A stretch of DNA of 64,000 nucleotides from Cyanobacteria bacterium FACHB-502. GTDB lineage: Bacteria > Cyanobacteriota > Cyanobacteriia > Elainellales > Elainellaceae. Of the stretch, positions 55,224 through 61,831 are shown piece after piece. Each line of letters opens with the position of its first letter. The first letter of the stretch is position 1. The DNA lies in assembly GCA_014695325.1 (NCBI GenBank), contig JACJNZ010000014.1, positions 62,001-126,000 of the forward strand, given 5' to 3'. The notes beneath the pieces are model-generated. The model had not been told where the DNA came from. It saw only the letters and a program-made list of their open reading frames with translations, and made no database searches. The position numbers and the translations under genes were made by a program.

Positions 55224-55487
55224 TCAGGAATCGAATGTGTTGTGCTGGTGCATTTGCTGATTTAGCTCGTCCAACTTGATTTGGAAATCGATAGAGTATT
55301 GTTCAATGCGAATCTCATCACCTTGCGTTAAACTTTCCTGCAACTGCCTCATCAAGGTTTCAATTTCCTGACGAAGGCTCGAGGCAAACTGCATCCCAAA
55401 GTCTAGAGCTGCCTGCTTAAGCTGTTGTTTCCCTTGTAATACTACAGCTTCGGCACGATCGCGCTTCTCGGTAGAGTCGTGAGTCAT
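55224..55487 (-). CDS. Small alpha-helical protein of unknown function
   Basis: An 87-residue protein, almost entirely helical and probably a coiled coil ('AEAVVLQGKQQLKQAALDFGMQFASSLRQEIETLMRQLQ', 'SIDFQIKLDELNQQMHQHN'). No cysteines, signal peptide or known motif. It is divergent from the epimerase gene. The family is not recognised. Confidence 0.55.
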   Translation of the reverse strand: MTHDSTEKRDRAEAVVLQGKQQLKQAALDFGMQFASSLRQEIETLMRQLQESLTQGDEIRIEQYSIDFQIKLDELNQQMHQHNTFDS

Positions 55488-55739
55488 GATTTTACTCCAG
55501 AGATTTGAAGAATCATCAGGTTATTTTTTCACAGTAATACTCAGATCAGTGGCCGCGTAATGGGTGCCTTAACTTGCTTCTACACTAACTCGAAGAATTC
55601 TATAAAAAGAGCTAGAACTTCTACCATGCAAACATTTTGAACATTCGTGATGCGAATGCTTAATTTGTTGATTCGGCTAACCAGCGTGGTAATCGACAAT
55701 TAAACTAAATTAAAGTTTGTCGCTTTTCCTCCAGCATTC

Positions 55740-56783
55740 ATGCAGATCCACATTGAAACCTTCACCGTTCACAAGCGCGTCCCACTTACCATCAGCCGGG
55801 GCACAACCAGCGAAAGTACCAATCTTTGGGTGCGTGTGGAACAGGACGGCATCGAAGGATGGGGTGAAGCATCGCCTTTCTTGGTGGGAGACGTGCCGCA
55901 AACAACTGAATTGCTGCTGCAAAATCTGCAAGCCCTTAAGCCGCGCCTGGAAAAATTCACCCCCTTCGATCGCCAGCCCATTGAACGCTTACTCCGCACC
56001 GTCACCTTATTCTCAGCTGTCAGAACAGCCGTGGATCTGGCACTACACGACTGGATAGGCAAAAAAGTGGGACTTCCCCTCTGGCAGCTTTGGGGACTCG
56101 ATCGCCGCAAAATTGTCCCGACTTCAGTGACGATCGGCATTAGCTCACCGGAAGCGGCAAAACAGCGGATGCTGCAATGGATGGACATCACCACGGTAAA
56201 AGCGGTGAAGGTTAAACTCGGAAGTCCAGCAGGGGTGGAAGCCGATCGGGCGATGCTGCAAGCCGTGAAAAAAGTTGCCCCCTCGGATGCAAAATGGAGC
56301 GTTGATGCCAATGGCGGCTGGACCGTTGATGAGGCGATCGAGATGAGTCACTGGCTCAACGACCAGGGCATTACCTATATTGAGCAGCCCCTCGCTGCCG
56401 GGCAGGAAGCCGACTTGCCCCAGGTTTATCGCCGATCGCCCCTGCCGATTTTTGTAGACGAAAGCTGCTTTACCAGCCGCGATATTCCTGCCCTTGCCGA
56501 TCGGGTCAACGGCATCAACATTAAACTCATGAAGTCGGGCGGACTGACAGAGGCATTGCGGATGATTCACACAGCGCAAGCCTGCGGCTTACAGGTGATG
56601 TTTGGCTGCTATTCCGACAGCGCTCTCTCGAACACGGCGGCGGCTCAGCTTGCACCTCTAGCAGATCATTTGGATCTGGATAGCCATTTGAACTTGAAGG
56701 ATGACCCGTTTGTGGGGGCAACGATGCAGGAGGGCTGTTTGATTCCTTCTGATGCGCCCGGCTTGGGTGTGATTCGCGCCTGA
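55740..56783 (+). CDS. Enolase-superfamily dipeptide epimerase / N-acyl amino acid racemase-like
   Basis: A 347-residue enzyme of the mandelate racemase/muconate lactonising branch. The catalytic Lys pair is Lys157/Lys159 (VKVKLGS), metal ligands are Asp189 (DANGGW), Glu215 (EQP) and Asp240 (DES), and the second acid/base is Lys262 in NIKLMKSGG. This set is that of L-Ala-D/L-Glu epimerases and of the recently described N-acetyl-D-Glu racemase DgcA; sequence by eye cannot separate the two. The DUF1611 gene follows 41 bases later, which favours the DgcA-like reading. Alternatively it recycles murein peptides. Confidence 0.9.
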   Translation: MQIHIETFTVHKRVPLTISRGTTSESTNLWVRVEQDGIEGWGEASPFLVGDVPQTTELLLQNLQALKPRLEKFTPFDRQPIERLLRTVTLFSAVRTAVDLALHDWIGKKVGLPLWQLWGLDRRKIVPTSVTIGISSPEAAKQRMLQWMDITTVKAVKVKLGSPAGVEADRAMLQAVKKVAPSDAKWSVDANGGWTVDEAIEMSHWLNDQGITYIEQPLAAGQEADLPQVYRRSPLPIFVDESCFTSRDIPALADRVNGINIKLMKSGGLTEALRMIHTAQACGLQVMFGCYSDSALSNTAAAQLAPLADHLDLDSHLNLKDDPFVGATMQEGCLIPSDAPGLGVIRA

Positions 56784-56824
56784 TCTGAATTTTTCACTCG
56801 ATCGCCTTTTCTCCTCATTCTTCT

Positions 56825-57865
56825 ATGCTGAAACCGACCGATCGCATTGCCATTTTGCTCCACGAAGGAACCCAAAGCTCGAAGGGAAAAACCGGAATTT
56901 CTCTGCTGCGCTACAGCGAAAACCCGATCGTCGCCGTAATTGATCACGCCTGTGCCGGGCAGTCTTTGCTGCAGTTGACCGGAATCGATCGCGATGCACC
57001 GATCGTGGCTTCGACCCAGGAGGCGATCGAATATCAGCCAAATGTGCTGGCGATCGGAATTGCGCCATCGGGCGGAGCATTGCCGGAACCGTGGCGGCAG
57101 GAGGTGAAGCAGGCGGTTGCTGCGGGAATGTCGGTAATGAACGGGCTGCATACCTCAATGGCGGATGATCCAGAGTTTCAGGCGTTGCTAAAGTCCGATC
57201 AGTGGATCTGGGATGTGCGACGAGAACCTGCGAATCTAGCGATCGGAAGTGGTAAGGCGCGATCGTTGTCCTGTCGGCGGGTGCTGGCCGTGGGAACCGA
57301 TATGAGCGTCGGCAAAATGTCCACAGGTTTAGAACTGAATCGGCTCTCTCGACAGCGCGGCATTCGTTCCTGTTTTCTGGCAACGGGGCAAACGGGGTTA
57401 ATGCTGGGCTATGACGGCATTCCGCTGGATGCGATTCGGATTGATTTTGCAGCAGGAGCCGTGGAACAAATTGTGATGCGCCATGGCAATGATCACGAGA
57501 TTGTCTACGTCGAAGGACAGGGATCACTCCTAAATCCTGGTTCGACCGCAACCTTACCGCTTGTGAGAGGGACACAGCCTACTCACCTGATCCTGGTACA
57601 CCGGGCAGGACAGCAGCATATCCATAATGTGCCGGATGTGCCAATTCCGCCGCTTGAAAACGTGGTGCGACTTTACGAAACCGTTGCCCATGCCGGAGGT
57701 TCCTTTGCTCCAGTTAAGGTAGTCGGCATTGCGCTGAATACGTTTCAACTCAGCGAAAGTGAGGCGAAGCAGGCGATCGATCGAGCCACTTCTACTACCG
57801 GGCTTCCCTGCACCGATCCAATTCGCTTTGGCGCAGATCTACTGCTGGATGCGATTTTGGCATGA
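56825..57865 (+). CDS. DUF1611 family protein, DgcN-like (putative D-Glu N-acetyltransferase)
   Basis: A 346-residue protein of the DUF1611 family. It has an N-terminal Rossmann-like domain ('DRIAILLHEGTQSSKGKTGISLL') and a C-terminal P-loop-like domain ('VGTDMSVGKMSTGLELNRLS', then 'YVEGQGSLLNPG'). A D-amino-acid N-acetyltransferase (DgcN), working with an epimerase (DgcA), was reported in marine bacteria and archaea; I infer the name from the family and the neighbour, since the active site has not been verified here. It follows the epimerase gene on the same strand and converges on ccaA with five bases between the stops. Confidence 0.8.
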   Translation: MLKPTDRIAILLHEGTQSSKGKTGISLLRYSENPIVAVIDHACAGQSLLQLTGIDRDAPIVASTQEAIEYQPNVLAIGIAPSGGALPEPWRQEVKQAVAAGMSVMNGLHTSMADDPEFQALLKSDQWIWDVRREPANLAIGSGKARSLSCRRVLAVGTDMSVGKMSTGLELNRLSRQRGIRSCFLATGQTGLMLGYDGIPLDAIRIDFAAGAVEQIVMRHGNDHEIVYVEGQGSLLNPGSTATLPLVRGTQPTHLILVHRAGQQHIHNVPDVPIPPLENVVRLYETVAHAGGSFAPVKVVGIALNTFQLSESEAKQAIDRATSTTGLPCTDPIRFGADLLLDAILA

Positions 57866-57870
57866 GAGCT

Positions 57871-58758
57871 CTACCGTTTTGCACTTCCCCGGTAGATGCG
57901 ATCGGCTTGCTCTGGAGTAAGCCAGGGGGTGTGACTGCTGCCGTTCGTGGCAGATTGAGCATTCGCGGCGGCTGTCGCTGGGGTAACAGAGGGAGTGCCA
58001 GAAACCGCGACGGGTCTCGGGACGGGCTGCGACACAGCAATATTGCTGCCATTCGGCAACTCACAAGCAACAGGTGGAGCACTGGTGGATCTGAAGGTGG
58101 CAGGTTGGGGCACATCGTCCGGTAGGTACTGGGCCAGTTGGCTTTGGGGAGCGACGTAGGAATGCGTTTCCGGGTCGTAAGCCAGCACTTCGCCCGTTTC
58201 GATCAGGTAGACCCAGCCAAAAATCATCAGCTTGCCCTGGAATAGCCGCGATCGCACGACGGGATAGGTTTTCAGGTTTTCGATCTGGGTGATCACGTTT
58301 TCGGCGATCGCAATTTCCAGCATCTCGTCTTTGGTGCGGTTGCTATAGTTTTCCTTCACCAAGCGACGGGTGGCTTCGGCGTGGCGCAGCCAGTCATAGA
58401 CCAGCGGCATTTCTTCTTCCAGGCTGCCTAATTGCAGTAAGCCTTTCATTGCGCCGCAGTGCGAGTGTCCGCAGATGACGATTTGGTCAATGTCCAATGC
58501 GTGAATCGCGTATTCGACCGCTGCCCCTTCGCCGCCGTTGGCTGCACCATAGGGAGGAATAATGTTTCCCGCGTTGCGAATCACAAACAAATCGCCCAGA
58601 TCGGTCTGAGTCAGCATCACCGGATCGATGCGCGAGTCTGAGCAGGTGATAAACAGCACTCTGGGATCTTGCCCCTGAGAAAGCTGTTCAAACAACTCCC
58701 GGTGAGTCGAAACGTAGCTGTCTTTGAATTCGCGCAGCCCTTGAATCAGCTTTTTCAT
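57871..58758 (-). CDS. ccaA: Beta-carbonic anhydrase, carboxysomal CcaA type
   Basis: CcaA dehydrates bicarbonate inside the beta-carboxysome to supply CO2 to RuBisCO. The 295-residue protein has zinc ligands Cys39 (CSDSRID), His98 and Cys101 (CGHSHCGAMK) and Asp41/Arg43 of the catalytic dyad. The beta-CA core (to about residue 210) is followed by a variable Pro/Ser/Ala-rich linker and the terminal peptide 'LTPEQADRIYRG', which is conserved in CcaA proteins and, from published work on this family, recruits the enzyme to CcmM. That tail distinguishes it from EcaB and other carbonic anhydrases. Confidence 0.95.
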   Translation of the reverse strand: MKKLIQGLREFKDSYVSTHRELFEQLSQGQDPRVLFITCSDSRIDPVMLTQTDLGDLFVIRNAGNIIPPYGAANGGEGAAVEYAIHALDIDQIVICGHSHCGAMKGLLQLGSLEEEMPLVYDWLRHAEATRRLVKENYSNRTKDEMLEIAIAENVITQIENLKTYPVVRSRLFQGKLMIFGWVYLIETGEVLAYDPETHSYVAPQSQLAQYLPDDVPQPATFRSTSAPPVACELPNGSNIAVSQPVPRPVAVSGTPSVTPATAAANAQSATNGSSHTPWLTPEQADRIYRGSAKR

Positions 58759-59769: not shown

Positions 59770-61527
59770 TTAGAAGCTCTGTTGTACATATTGCAGAATA
59801 CCGCGAACGATCGCCTGTGCCATGGTGCTGCGGAAATTGCGATCGGCGAGAAGGCGGGCATCTTCTGCACCTGTGACAAACCCTACCTCGACCAAGGCAG
59901 CGGGCATTTGCGTGTTTCGCAGCACATAGAAGCGGGCAGATTTGACCCCCCGACTCCGCATTCCCGTTGCCTCAATGATGCTGTTCTGAATCGCCTGCGC
60001 CAGCACCCGCCCGCTGTCGGAATAGTAGTAGGTTTCTGCACCGTTGACATCGGGACGGCTCAAGCTGATAGAGTTAGCGTGAATGCTGACAAACAAATCG
60101 GCTCTGGCACGGTTTGCTAGACTAACGCGTGGCTGCAAATCGATTTCGCGCTCATCTGTGCGGGTCATTAGCACCTCAACGCCCTGCCGTTGCAGCAGCT
60201 CTGCCACCTGTAGCGAAATATCCAGCACGATATCGGTTTCACGAATACCTCCGATGCCGACTGCCCCCGGATCGCGTCCGCCGTGCCCTGGATCGATCGT
60301 GATCGTAATTCGACTATCGCTAACGTTGGGCAAAGGGGCAGGGGTTCTAGGGCTAGATGGGGTGGAACCTGCTGGAATTCGTCTGCCCTGCAAACTGAGG
60401 GCGACCGTTTGCTGCACCGATCGCAATTCGCCAATCACAATCCCCGCTGCTGGAAGAAACTGGATCACCACGGTCGTTGGGTCACGCTGCTCGGCGCGAA
60501 ACCGTAGAACCGGGCTATTTTGCTCCAGCCGGGGTTGGGCGGTGTTATCGGCTAATCTGGCGTTGGGAATGACGATTTGATACTCTGCCGTGGTACGATT
60601 CCAGCCGCTCTCCAGATTGGTCAGCGATCGATCGGCGCGAATTACAAGCTGTCTGCCGCTATCTGCGAAGTCAATCCCCTGAATGGTGGCGGGTTGATCG
60701 GGGGCAGAACGGGTAAGCGATCGAGAGCTGTCGGGACGCTGGGCAGCCGTGATCGAATGGATGGGAATCAGCGCAACGCCGCCCGAACCGGGAGAAAGGC
60801 GCCAGTCGGTATCGTTCTGACTGAGAATGAGCGTCACCGTGACATTGGGCGAATCTCCTGCCGCCTGATCCACCTGGATCTGCTCGACCCCGTAGCGATC
60901 GATTTCGATCTGACGCTGACTGAAGCTTGGAGAAAGGGCAGTATTCGGCAGTTGCAGGATGAGCCTGCGGCGATCGTCTTCCCATCGCTGCCGGATCTGC
61001 GGCGTTTCGCCCCCAGTTCGCAAAAAGAACCCATCTGGCGTGACCCGCAATTCTTCAAGCTGGGACGCAGCGCGAAAATTTCCTTGATTTTCTTGCTCCC
61101 CTTGCTCCCCGGATGCGTTTGCGATCTGGACAGGCTGCGGCATCTGAACAGTCCACTGGGTCGGCGAGGCTCCCCGGACGCGCACCTGCTGCGGATCGAT
61201 CGTGTAGCCGGGGGCAAACTGAATGACGATGCGAGTCGTCTGTCCATCAAATTGGGCAATCCGAAGCGACTGAATCGCGCCTATTTCAGATTGAGTGACG
61301 GCAGGGCGATCGAGCCGGGTTTCGGGCAAATCGATCACCAGGCGACTGGGGTTTGCCAAAAGCTGCACTCTGGGCTGCACATCATCATCGGTAGTAAAGC
61401 GCAGTGTGGGACTGTCTGTACTGCGGTTCAACTGCCAGGATTGCAGCCTGCCTGCTTCGGCGGGAGAAGACAACAGCAGGACACCGACCATGCCTGCCAA
61501 ACCAGAAAGAAGCCAGGAAGATTTCAC
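59770..61527 (-). CDS. N-acetylmuramoyl-L-alanine amidase with AMIN domains
   Basis: A 585-residue exported protein that cuts between N-acetylmuramic acid and the stem peptide during septum splitting or cell-cell channel formation. A signal peptide (residues 1-25, ending SPAEAG) is followed by two AMIN domains ('LANPSRLVIDLPETRLDRPAV', 'TNLESGWNRTTAEYQIVIPNARL'), which bind envelope polymers, and a C-terminal Amidase_3 domain. Zinc ligands are in 'ITIDPGHGGRDPGAVG', 'ETDIVLDI' and 'DLFVSIHANS', and the catalytic Glu in 'ALVEVGFVTG'. This is the AmiC type that acts at the septum in filamentous cyanobacteria. Confidence 0.95.
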   Translation of the reverse strand: MKSSWLLSGLAGMVGVLLLSSPAEAGRLQSWQLNRSTDSPTLRFTTDDDVQPRVQLLANPSRLVIDLPETRLDRPAVTQSEIGAIQSLRIAQFDGQTTRIVIQFAPGYTIDPQQVRVRGASPTQWTVQMPQPVQIANASGEQGEQENQGNFRAASQLEELRVTPDGFFLRTGGETPQIRQRWEDDRRRLILQLPNTALSPSFSQRQIEIDRYGVEQIQVDQAAGDSPNVTVTLILSQNDTDWRLSPGSGGVALIPIHSITAAQRPDSSRSLTRSAPDQPATIQGIDFADSGRQLVIRADRSLTNLESGWNRTTAEYQIVIPNARLADNTAQPRLEQNSPVLRFRAEQRDPTTVVIQFLPAAGIVIGELRSVQQTVALSLQGRRIPAGSTPSSPRTPAPLPNVSDSRITITIDPGHGGRDPGAVGIGGIRETDIVLDISLQVAELLQRQGVEVLMTRTDEREIDLQPRVSLANRARADLFVSIHANSISLSRPDVNGAETYYYSDSGRVLAQAIQNSIIEATGMRSRGVKSARFYVLRNTQMPAALVEVGFVTGAEDARLLADRNFRSTMAQAIVRGILQYVQQSF

Positions 61528-61831
61528 GAATTCAGATCCTCGATCGTCTCAAACGGAAAAAGCTTACTAAAGCGACAGTACCCTATTGCCCGTACAAATC
61601 GCGTAACTAAACGGGGAGCATCAGCCGGACTGGCTGCACTTGAGACGGTCACTTGGGCGAGTTCGTTCCGCTAGTTTGTTTACGTATGGTTGCGAAAGCT
61701 GCCCTGCCCAGAGATCCTACCAAAAAAATAAAACCCCCCAGTACGAAACCGGGAGGCGATAATCAGGGTGCATCTACCAAATAACTCTTCGGTCGAAAAT
61801 TGCCCTGATCAGGATGATTTCCAAACTTGAT
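61528..61831. other. 304-base spacer
   Basis: Between the amidase and the WG-repeat gene, both minus. It contains the terminator of the WG gene (61722-61756). Otherwise no feature is seen. Confidence 0.5.
61722..61756 (-). terminator. Terminator of the WG-repeat gene
   Basis: On the minus strand a 9-bp stem CCTCCCGGT / ACTGGGGGG (plus-strand 61748-61756 and 61734-61742) with loop TTCGT is followed by TTTTATTTTTTT. It lies 76 bases beyond the stop of the WG-repeat gene. Confidence 0.8.

Follow-up and report, generated by a model that had tools for sequence, protein, structure and literature searches.

Does a cyanobacterium possess the two-protein route that other bacteria use on D-glutamate? 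The question is raised by two neighbouring genes of Cyanobacteria bacterium FACHB-502. In other bacteria, the pair formed by DgcA and DgcN has been reported to convert D-Glu by N-acetylation and racemisation. A 2023 paper by Yu et al. in ISME J is said to deal with DgcN and DgcA. A sequence-only reading of the window (the whole 64,000-nucleotide stretch of DNA analysed here) had suggested that an enolase-superfamily epimerase gene and the DUF1611 gene following it encode such a pair. The gene arrangement that it described was confirmed, as both open reading frames match in coordinates and strand (Table 1). Window coordinates are used throughout, and both genes lie on the forward strand.

Table 1. 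Features of the epimerase–DUF1611 locus.
Feature	Position	Strand	Description
Epimerase gene, first of the pair	55740..56783	+	ORF, 347 aa; Pfam PF13378/PF02746; enolase-superfamily (muconate-lactonizing type) epimerase/racemase, DgcA-like
KxK motif (K157 and K159 of the epimerase)	56208..56216	+	Invariant in the A4 alignment and in 81/81 grouped rows
Y291-S292-D293 within 'GCYSDS' of the epimerase	56610..56618	+	Signature of cyanobacterial epimerases, from residue tallies and group consensus
DxD motif (D312 and D314 of the epimerase)	56673..56681	+	Followed by S315-H316 in cyanobacteria
Spacer between the two genes, 41 bases	56784..56824	+	
DUF1611 gene	56825..57865	+	ORF, 346 aa; Pfam; DgcN-like; orthologue of Ava_3511
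P-loop-like motif G157-T-D-M-S-V-G-K164-M165 of the DUF1611 protein	57293..57319	+	Group tally
E230-G231-Q232 motif of the DUF1611 protein	57512..57520	+	Conserved in 9/9 DUF1611 groups

The Pfam domains of the epimerase are MR_MLE_N and MR_MLE_C, the latter at 124.7 bits. Its top NCBIfam match was DgcA (NF042940), at 214.4 bits against an equivalog cut-off of 400, and the models for L-Ala-D/L-Glu epimerases (AEEs) scored 146.9 and 140.6 bits. On NF042940, three annotated DgcA proteins reached 402–436 bits and a Tritonibacter protein from an unannotated record (L051) 507. The DUF1611 protein carries DUF1611_N and, at 247 bits, DUF1611_C; it matched DgcN (NF041892) best, at 242.9 bits against a cut-off of 480. 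Among ten other DUF1611 proteins, four scored 493–550 bits on this model, L047 scored 429 and the picocyanobacterial L064 224.

The DUF1611 model (pLDDT 95.8) shares the two-domain fold of the DgcN structure 7xrj, titled N-acetyltransferase DgcN-25328 (Z 36.5, rmsd 3.7, 329 residues aligned); it also matched 2obn (Z 50.5) and 2g0t (Z 38.1), and no acetyltransferase (GNAT) fold appeared among the best 50 structure matches listed. For the epimerase (AlphaFold model, pLDDT 96.4), the nearest solved structure by both sequence and fold was 3iji, a dipeptide epimerase of B. thetaiotaomicron (Z 46.1, rmsd 1.7, 333 residues aligned, 35% identity). This enzyme, which with 3ijq we take to be locus BT1313, has L-Ala-D-Glu bound in both entries. 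Its proximity favours an alternative based on murein-peptide recycling, in which the epimerase would act as an epimerase of L-Ala-D/L-Glu dipeptides, rendering the L-Ala-D-Glu of cell-wall peptides digestible, and the DUF1611 protein would have an associated but different job. We consider this alternative unlikely in the light of how the two genes are distributed.

Conservation of the pair in cyanobacterial genomes had been proposed as a check, and the two genes proved to be nearly always kept or lost together. Across 292 Cyanobacteriota genomes, 81 have orthologues of both, none has the DUF1611 gene alone, one has the epimerase alone (G053/L056) and 210 have neither, a pairing far beyond chance (Fisher p = 2e-72, uncorrected and ignoring relatedness). 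The pair is present in 76 of the 139 Cyanobacteriia genomes, and carriers named among the retrieved loci include Microcystis, Calothrix, Fischerella and Prochloron. Of the 81 carriers, 70 have the genes adjacent and co-oriented, within 400 bp of each other; in five the genes are 0.4 to about 2 kb apart, and in six they are unlinked or on different contigs. In five genera with mixed states, each genome has both orthologues or none, two of them with remnants: a single ORF fusing the epimerase start to the DUF1611 end (G266) and a short DUF1611 match only (G203). The pair was also found outside cyanobacteria, in haloarchaea (adjacent in 20 of 21 loci retrieved) and other phyla; 20 of 80 retrieved loci, nine of them cyanobacterial, have no epimerase within the retrieved DNA. 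Epimerase and DUF1611 protein distances were correlated over 69 loci (r = 0.939) and over the 37 non-cyanobacterial loci (r = 0.953), none of 1000 permutations being as high in either case, although shared species history alone would also yield a correlation. The two genes behave as a unit, in near-obligate pairing. This speaks against murein recycling, for which a stand-alone dipeptide epimerase should need no DUF1611 protein, as does the presence of the pair in haloarchaea, which have no murein.

In the epimerase tree, the window protein belongs to starred sets (40, 41 and 43 rows) from which a 10-row DgcA clade is excluded (support 100/100). It is also left outside an 8-row dipeptide-epimerase clade (1jpm, 3jva, 3q45, 3rit; support 100/99) that holds the B. 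subtilis, E. faecalis, Cytophaga and Methylococcus enzymes, a further point against murein recycling. The comparison of clades proposed for the epimerase came out divided: separation from the B. subtilis/E. faecalis dipeptide epimerases was found, but so was separation from proteobacterial DgcA. The E. coli L-Ala-D/L-Glu epimerase (YcjG, 1jpd) sits within the DgcA clade, which favours the murein alternative and warns that automatic DgcA/AEE naming is unreliable. Ancestry alone is therefore insufficient to decide the substrate, and, since DgcA also retains the DxD motif, the comparison of DgcA with AEE clades is a weak test. The cyanobacterial pair is a subfamily of its own with Armatimonadota as nearest kin, and may therefore prefer a substrate or acyl group other than those of DgcN–DgcA.

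Epimerase residues were tallied in alignment A4 (37 proteins) and in a wider alignment of 93 rows, 81 of them in multi-row groups. The catalytic set named at the outset (K157, K159, D189, E215, D240, K262) was correctly numbered and is invariant in A4 and in all 81 grouped rows; it has no power to tell AEE from DgcA, which has the same residues. The DxD motif of AEEs grips the free ammonium of dipeptide substrates, and its retention in 81/81 grouped rows would agree with murein recycling. However, the motif is common to dipeptide epimerases and DgcA, and was dropped as a discriminator between them because annotated DgcA proteins carry it too. An invariant DxD is odd for an N-acetyl substrate, yet DgcA retains it. 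Arg20, in the ISRG motif, occurs in 38/40 cyanobacterial and 6/6 DgcA-group rows, and would presumably read the Glu side chain by analogy with Arg24 of the B. subtilis AEE.

Other positions set the cyanobacterial proteins apart. Y291 is found in 40/40 cyanobacterial rows of the 93-row alignment and in 0/53 others, D293 in 38/40 cyanobacterial rows, and S315 in 40/40 against 3/53, its carriers including Armatimonadota (L148 and L151) and a Myxococcota bin (L131). R248 of the DUF1611 protein is shared by cyanobacteria and the lineages of these three loci, whereas the DgcN group and the haloarchaeal group have His; in all, 26 DUF1611 positions distinguish the cyanobacterial from the DgcN group at the 80% level. 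Residues specific to the clade in each partner (Y291 and S315; R248) would suit a pair that acts not on N-acetyl-D-Glu but on D-Asp or a D-amino acid that is methylated or amidated, or that works through an N-succinyl intermediate or one with a different acyl group. We regard this reading as highly improbable. Against it, conservation extends to Arg20 and to the core residues of DgcN, and the pocket assignments, made from sequence only, are putative.

The chemistry of the DUF1611 protein was approached through its P-loop-like motif, tallied in nine groups (95 sequences out of 105 rows). In each of the nine, G157, D159, G163 and K164 are kept by at least 80% of the sequences. The residue after GK, at position 165, is M, L, K or R in 95/95 sequences and never S or T (M165 in the window). 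Standard Walker A motifs have Ser or Thr directly after GK, so that the protein departs from the GK[ST] definition of P-loop NTPases. The motif had been called intact; GTDMSVGKM is strongly conserved, but the Walker A Ser/Thr is missing from it. The C-terminal domain nevertheless has a P-loop NTPase fold, matching MinD (3q9l, Z 14.3), CbiA (5if9, Z 14.2) and BioD (3mle, Z 13.4), which we take to be SIMIBI-class proteins.

Such a fold, even with the Ser/Thr missing, therefore leaves room for an ATP-dependent, BioD/CbiA-type C–N ligase that would join an amino acid or other carboxylate to D-Glu (or L-Glu), the epimerase acting on the product, maybe a dipeptide. We regard this as very unlikely, given that the relative 7xrj was deposited as an N-acetyltransferase, that the absence of the Walker A Ser/Thr in 95/95 sequences argues against ordinary Mg-ATP chemistry, and that the fold match spans about 165–185 residues, only about half of the protein. 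In its favour, the modelled domain matches dethiobiotin synthetase and cobyrinic acid a,c-diamide synthase as well as MinD (Z 13 to 14), and the BioD model gave a weak hit (23.7 against a cut-off of 83.3 bits) to L053, a DUF1611 protein from a different class of the phylum. The DxD in 81/81 grouped rows would suit a substrate with a free amino group. An ATP-grasp gene stands next to or near the epimerase in two of four annotated regions (seven retrieved), those of Vibrio (L154) and Agrobacterium (L157), which gives ligase plus epimerase a precedent. Quite unlikely, too, is a distinct module in which the DUF1611 protein would be a modified P-loop, BioD-like C–N bond former that couples an amino-bearing or otherwise unusual acyl group with an acidic D-amino acid, the epimerase pocket (Y291-S-D, S315-H316) being matched to the conjugate. 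A second gene pair, with a PLP racemase, would have recruited the same DUF1611 scaffold separately, which would make DUF1611 a 'conjugation partner' for racemisation of amino acids in general.

The genomic surroundings were searched for further components. Between 55400 and 58000, one promoter-like site (1.5 expected) and three terminator-like sites (2.7 expected) showed no excess over chance. The recurrent neighbours recognised were, for picocyanobacteria and G036, miaB, ddl and others, and, for Leptolyngbya-like genomes, adk, secY and ribosomal-protein genes. Pfam checks, made in L070, covered ddl and an ftsQ-type POTRA domain; the rest were identified by eye. The pattern looks like lineage synteny, and a recurrent third gene was rejected as a pathway partner. 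The sole recurrent D-amino-acid gene seen near the pair was ddl, in one lineage group only, and no deacylase was recognised among the recurrent neighbours, most clusters being judged by eye and not by Pfam. A literature search, in which most subscription papers were out of reach, found no paper on this pair in cyanobacteria. Laboratory mutations of S. elongatus have been reported in an 'L-Ala-D/L-Glu epimerase' gene that may or may not correspond to this one: when the two affected residues were compared with the proteins of two genomes of the G036 genus, only one offset fitted both, and it would need a CTG start.

The suggested connection to turnover of peptidoglycan D-Glu is circumstantial. 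An amidase gene at 59770–61527 was discarded as a link: it is the third gene downstream, is read from the opposite strand, and is separated from the pair by two unrelated genes. Among 139 Cyanobacteriia, an NlpC/P60 homologue and the pair occur together in 70 genomes, the pair only in 6, the peptidase only in 62 and neither in 1, so that the pair does not track the peptidase as murein recycling would have it. This lack of a positive association is weak evidence, because a match at 1e-20 merely serves as a proxy for the enzyme of PMC2954226. The source genome also has a glutamate racemase (295 bits), which could render the route redundant.

Taken together, these results make it reasonably probable that the pair is a two-step racemisation module working like DgcN–DgcA, by N-acylation of an acidic D-amino acid followed by racemisation. 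The two proteins share ancestry and fold with DgcN and DgcA, their catalytic residues are complete, Arg20 is conserved and the pairing is near-obligate. We infer the substrate, acyl donor, direction and role in D-Glu salvage as follows. The DUF1611 protein would acylate the amino group of the acidic D-amino acid, which is most likely D-Glu; the group that DgcN adds is acetyl. With Mg2+ as cofactor, the epimerase would then take and return the alpha-proton with its two active-site lysines, setting up an equilibrium between N-acyl-D-Glu and N-acyl-L-Glu; deacylation or arginine metabolism could use the latter. The module may thereby salvage D-Glu from cell-wall turnover or from outside. Scores at about half the equivalog cut-offs, the 26 DUF1611 differences and the differences in the putative epimerase pocket motifs count against this assignment, and so do the 20 loci with no epimerase in the retrieved DNA and the lack of a recognised deacylase among the recurrent neighbours.

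The claim of a DgcA/DgcN-like pair in a cyanobacterium therefore stands as to best NCBIfam families, the 7xrj match and co-inheritance, and is qualified by scores of 214/400 and 243/480 bits and by an epimerase outside the DgcA clade. Placement in the dipeptide-epimerase clade or lack of conservation would have spoken against it; as far as sequence can test, neither came true. That the usual annotation is wrong for both genes was not borne out. If the DgcN–DgcA-like module is real, over half of the sampled Cyanobacteriia (76/139) hold an unrecognised D-amino-acid salvage route, the DUF1611 structure 2obn gains a function, and these epimerases no longer belong under their default label of murein dipeptide epimerase.

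Among known systems, DgcN–DgcA (NF041892/NF042940, 7xrj) resembles the window pair in families, gene adjacency, catalytic residues, DxD and overall DUF1611 structure. It differs in forming separate clades in both trees and in the residues of the putative epimerase pocket motifs; dgcN genes annotated on plasmids encode proteins about 33–40% identical to the window DUF1611 protein. One Pseudoalteromonas locus has dgcR, whereas no regulator-type domain was detected among the window neighbours scanned with Pfam. The L-Ala-D/L-Glu epimerases YkfB (1jpm) and YcjG (1jpd) share fold, KxK, DxD and metal ligands with the window epimerase, which belongs to neither the starred clade of YkfB nor the DgcA clade of YcjG and which, unlike them, has a near-obligate DUF1611 partner and, in the Pfam scan of neighbours, no adjoining murein peptidase. 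The B. thetaiotaomicron epimerase groups with the single unpartnered orthologue and not with the cyanobacterial clade. Ava_3511 of Anabaena variabilis, an orthologue of the window DUF1611 protein at 64% identity within the cyanobacterial clade, has had a solved structure since 2007 (2obn), under an entry title that names no function. Finally, the fold of the epimerase is shared, at 23–25% identity, by the N-acylamino-acid racemases of the enolase superfamily (2p88, Z 44.3; 1xpy, Z 38.8), which act on N-acyl amino acids by a two-base mechanism.

The sequence-only reading placed an epimerase gene 41 bases from a DUF1611 protein gene on the same strand, and both ORFs were recovered as described. 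A convergent carbonic-anhydrase-like gene (Pfam) ends five bases 3' of the pair, and a promoter search across 55400-58000 returned one sigma-70-like promoter against 1.5 expected, nothing above chance. Besides one DUF1611 protein and one epimerase of the window type, the genome encodes a glutamate racemase (295 bits); a further epimerase match is distant and weak, at 29 bits. Elsewhere in the window, an NsiR1 (nitrogen stress-induced RNA 1) match, agreeing in its 5' part and terminator stem, has an amidase gene on one side and a WG-repeat gene on the other.

Positions of the pair and of related features in the window and in compared loci (L-numbers)
Feature	Location	Strand	Source
Enolase-superfamily epimerase	window, 55740-56783	+	ORF
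DUF1611 protein	window, 56825-57865	+	ORF
NsiR1	window, 61726-61779	-	Rfam, 47.5 bits (gathering 39)
DUF1611 and PLP racemase-type	L057, 3944-5086 and 2868-3971		Pfam
DUF1611 and PLP racemase-type	L058, 3944-5065 and 5086-6153		Pfam
DUF1611 and PLP racemase-type	L059-L061		by eye
DUF1611 and PLP racemase-type	L045, L048		annotation
Gammaproteobacterial DgcA passing both cut-offs	L041, 4824-5789		
Gammaproteobacterial DgcA passing both cut-offs	L042, 4869-5834		

Searches for the two proteins in one set of 292 Cyanobacteriota genomes (G-numbers) were combined, with orthologues defined by identities of at least 36% (DUF1611) and 34% (epimerase), each over more than 700 bases. Both orthologues occurred in 81 genomes, the epimerase alone in one (G053), DUF1611 alone in none and neither in 210. 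These counts leave out a sub-threshold DUF1611 paralogue (33-36% identity) in seven genomes, where it is the sole DUF1611 (G211) or accompanies the orthologue (G070, G105, G175, G235, G239, G274), as well as weak matches to the epimerase (G047, G231) and fragments in two genomes: one remaining ORF joining the epimerase start to the DUF1611 end (G266) and a short DUF1611 match (G203). Seventy of the 81 pairs are adjacent on one strand, five are separated by 0.4 to ~2 kb and six are unlinked or split over different contigs. The epimerase comes first in 65 adjacent pairs; the five with DUF1611 first all belong to one family (f38) outside class Cyanobacteriia, a class in which 76 of 139 genomes carry the pair. 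Five genera mix pair-positive and pair-negative genomes, and every genome in them has both orthologues or neither, which controls in part for relatedness. The cyanobacterial pair acts as a unit, and its conservation among these genomes is borne out. In picocyanobacteria and G036 (L064, L065, L069, L070) it adjoins miaB, a D-Ala-D-Ala ligase gene and an ftsQ-type gene.

Where the epimerase is lost its partner goes too, and such a partner would be expected either to provide the epimerase's substrate or to consume its product. This favours a route in which acylation would come first and racemisation second, which we judge, on balance, the most likely. PMC12363236 presents dgcN as a key gene of a pathway that irreversibly racemises acidic D-amino acids and their amides, and PMC10845958 names DgcN-DgcA as a Shewanella route that turns D-Glu into L-Glu. 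The epimerase might instead be an L-Ala-D/L-Glu dipeptide epimerase of cell-wall recycling, consistent with a cyanobacterial peptidase suited to making L-Ala-D-Glu (PMC2954226), but the distribution of an NlpC/P60 homologue does not track the pair, and we consider this unlikely. In S. elongatus PCC 7942, synpcc7942_2373, named L-Ala-D/L-Glu epimerase, bears different mutations in two laboratory wild types, one a stop and one Gly-to-Arg (PMC13273366 Table 2). The mutations hint at repeated loss in culture of this gene, a candidate counterpart of the window-type epimerase; S. elongatus has a DUF1611 gene, the control of our DUF1611 search.

A scan of a genome collection for DUF1611, of which the best 80 of at least 588 confirmed stretches were kept, found the pairing also in haloarchaea, Eremiobacterota, Chloroflexota, Armatimonadota, Actinomycetota and others. 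An epimerase is visible in the available DNA at 60 of these 80 loci, including 20 of 21 haloarchaeal ones. The 20 loci whose available DNA holds none (L074, L081, L093, L098, L103, L104, L108, L111, L112, L113, L122, L128, L132, L133, L135, L136, L138, L141, L142, L149) include some truncated by contig ends and nine from cyanobacteria, where the epimerase may sit elsewhere in the genome. Protein distances of the partners are correlated (r = 0.939 over 69 loci, 0.953 over the 37 non-cyanobacterial ones; 0 of 1000 permutations as high), a correlation to which common species history adds. DUF1611 genes of cyanobacterial look stand on contigs assigned to Deltaproteobacteria/Myxococcota (L131) and to Fimbriimonadales (L081, L112). 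In the DUF1611 tree L131 and L081 nest among the cyanobacterial rows, while L112 resembles them by score only; these cases probably reflect transfer or binning error.

The proposed DgcA/DgcN-like D-glutamate route finds partial support. DgcA and DgcN are the best NCBIfam matches of epimerase and DUF1611 protein, but their 214 and 243 bits lie under the cut-offs of 400 and 480; two AEE (L-Ala-D/L-Glu epimerase) models gave 147 and 141 bits. In an IQ-TREE phylogeny of 93 rows, the cyanobacterial epimerases form a supported (starred) clade, to which two Armatimonadota and a single Myxococcota bin attach; the nearest named relative of the window protein is a Leptolyngbyaceae bin. The window epimerase lies outside the separate supported (starred) clade of dipeptide epimerases (1jpm, 3jva, 3q45, 3rit), but also outside the DgcA clade (10 rows, support 100/100). 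The main groups recur among the DUF1611 proteins, in a tree of 105 rows built by a quick method with SH-aLRT support only. Gammaproteobacterial DgcA shares its clade with E. coli AEE (1jpd), and two DgcA proteins linked to DgcN on plasmids of Pantoea and Vibrio score above the equivalog cut-offs of DgcA and of E. coli-type AEE alike. Automatic DgcA/AEE names are therefore ambiguous, and membership of a sequence family does not by itself tell an N-acetyl-Glu racemase from a dipeptide epimerase.

Predicted models were of high confidence (pLDDT 96.4 for the epimerase, 95.8 for DUF1611). The epimerase model is nearest to B. thetaiotaomicron dipeptide epimerase with L-Ala-D-Glu (3iji, Z 46.1; 3ijq, Z 45.6); N-acyl amino-acid racemases also score highly (Z 39 to 44), so the fold leaves the substrate undecided. 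The DUF1611 model matches 2obn (Z 50.5), 2g0t (Z 38.1) and DgcN (7xrj, Z 36.5) over almost its full length, and its residues 146-346 match MinD, CbiA and BioD (Z 13 to 14). This predicted fold, together with the DxD motif of the epimerase, could suit an ATP-dependent C-N ligase whose product the epimerase acts on. The Walker-A Ser/Thr is absent, however, and 7xrj is titled an N-acetyltransferase, and we regard a ligase as improbable. The P-loop-like motif had been called intact, which is too strong: GK is conserved, but Ser/Thr directly follows it in none of 95 sequences. K22, D130, R132, G157, D159, G163, K164, G188, Q189, D202, E214 and E230-G231-Q232 are each kept at 80% or more in all nine DUF1611 groups, DgcN among them. 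The catalytic set ascribed to the epimerase (K157, K159, D189, E215, D240, K262) proved correct, being invariant, with D312 and D314, in an alignment of 37 proteins and in 81/81 grouped rows of the 93-row set. Arg20 is retained in 76 of those 81 and replaced by Tyr in 2/40 cyanobacterial rows, both Scytonemataceae.

A second DUF1611 subfamily, about one-third identical to the window protein, occurs in some cyanobacteria, Vibrio and Phaeobacter, where a PLP-dependent alanine-racemase-type gene follows it. One scaffold, DUF1611, thus stands beside racemases of two unrelated kinds. Since PLP racemases require a free amine, the chemistry or its order must differ in such pairs. On plasmids of Vibrio (L154, 1757-3993) and Agrobacterium (L157, 1209-3978), enolase-superfamily epimerase genes adjoin or lie close to ATP-grasp genes, which suggests ligase-plus-epimerase modules.

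Specificity signatures set the cyanobacterial proteins apart. Epimerase Y291, S292, S315 and H316 are present in 40/40 cyanobacterial rows and D293 in 38/40; among 53 rows from elsewhere, Y291 occurs in none and S315 in three (L148 and L151, Armatimonadota; L131, Myxococcota bin), with M, M and F at position 291. DUF1611 R248 is common to cyanobacteria and these same three loci. Judging from the families, the signature residues probably line the pockets, and changes in both partners suggest a common, altered intermediate. At the epimerase sites the DgcA group has GCM.G.S and DLDGP, and B. subtilis AEE has GSMIET and DFDAPLM; DUF1611 position 248 is H in DgcN and haloarchaea. The pair most likely resembles DgcN-DgcA in its working, yet the criteria tested speak against classing the window proteins as DgcN or DgcA: they represent a distinct, widespread cyanobacterial variant beside DgcN-DgcA.
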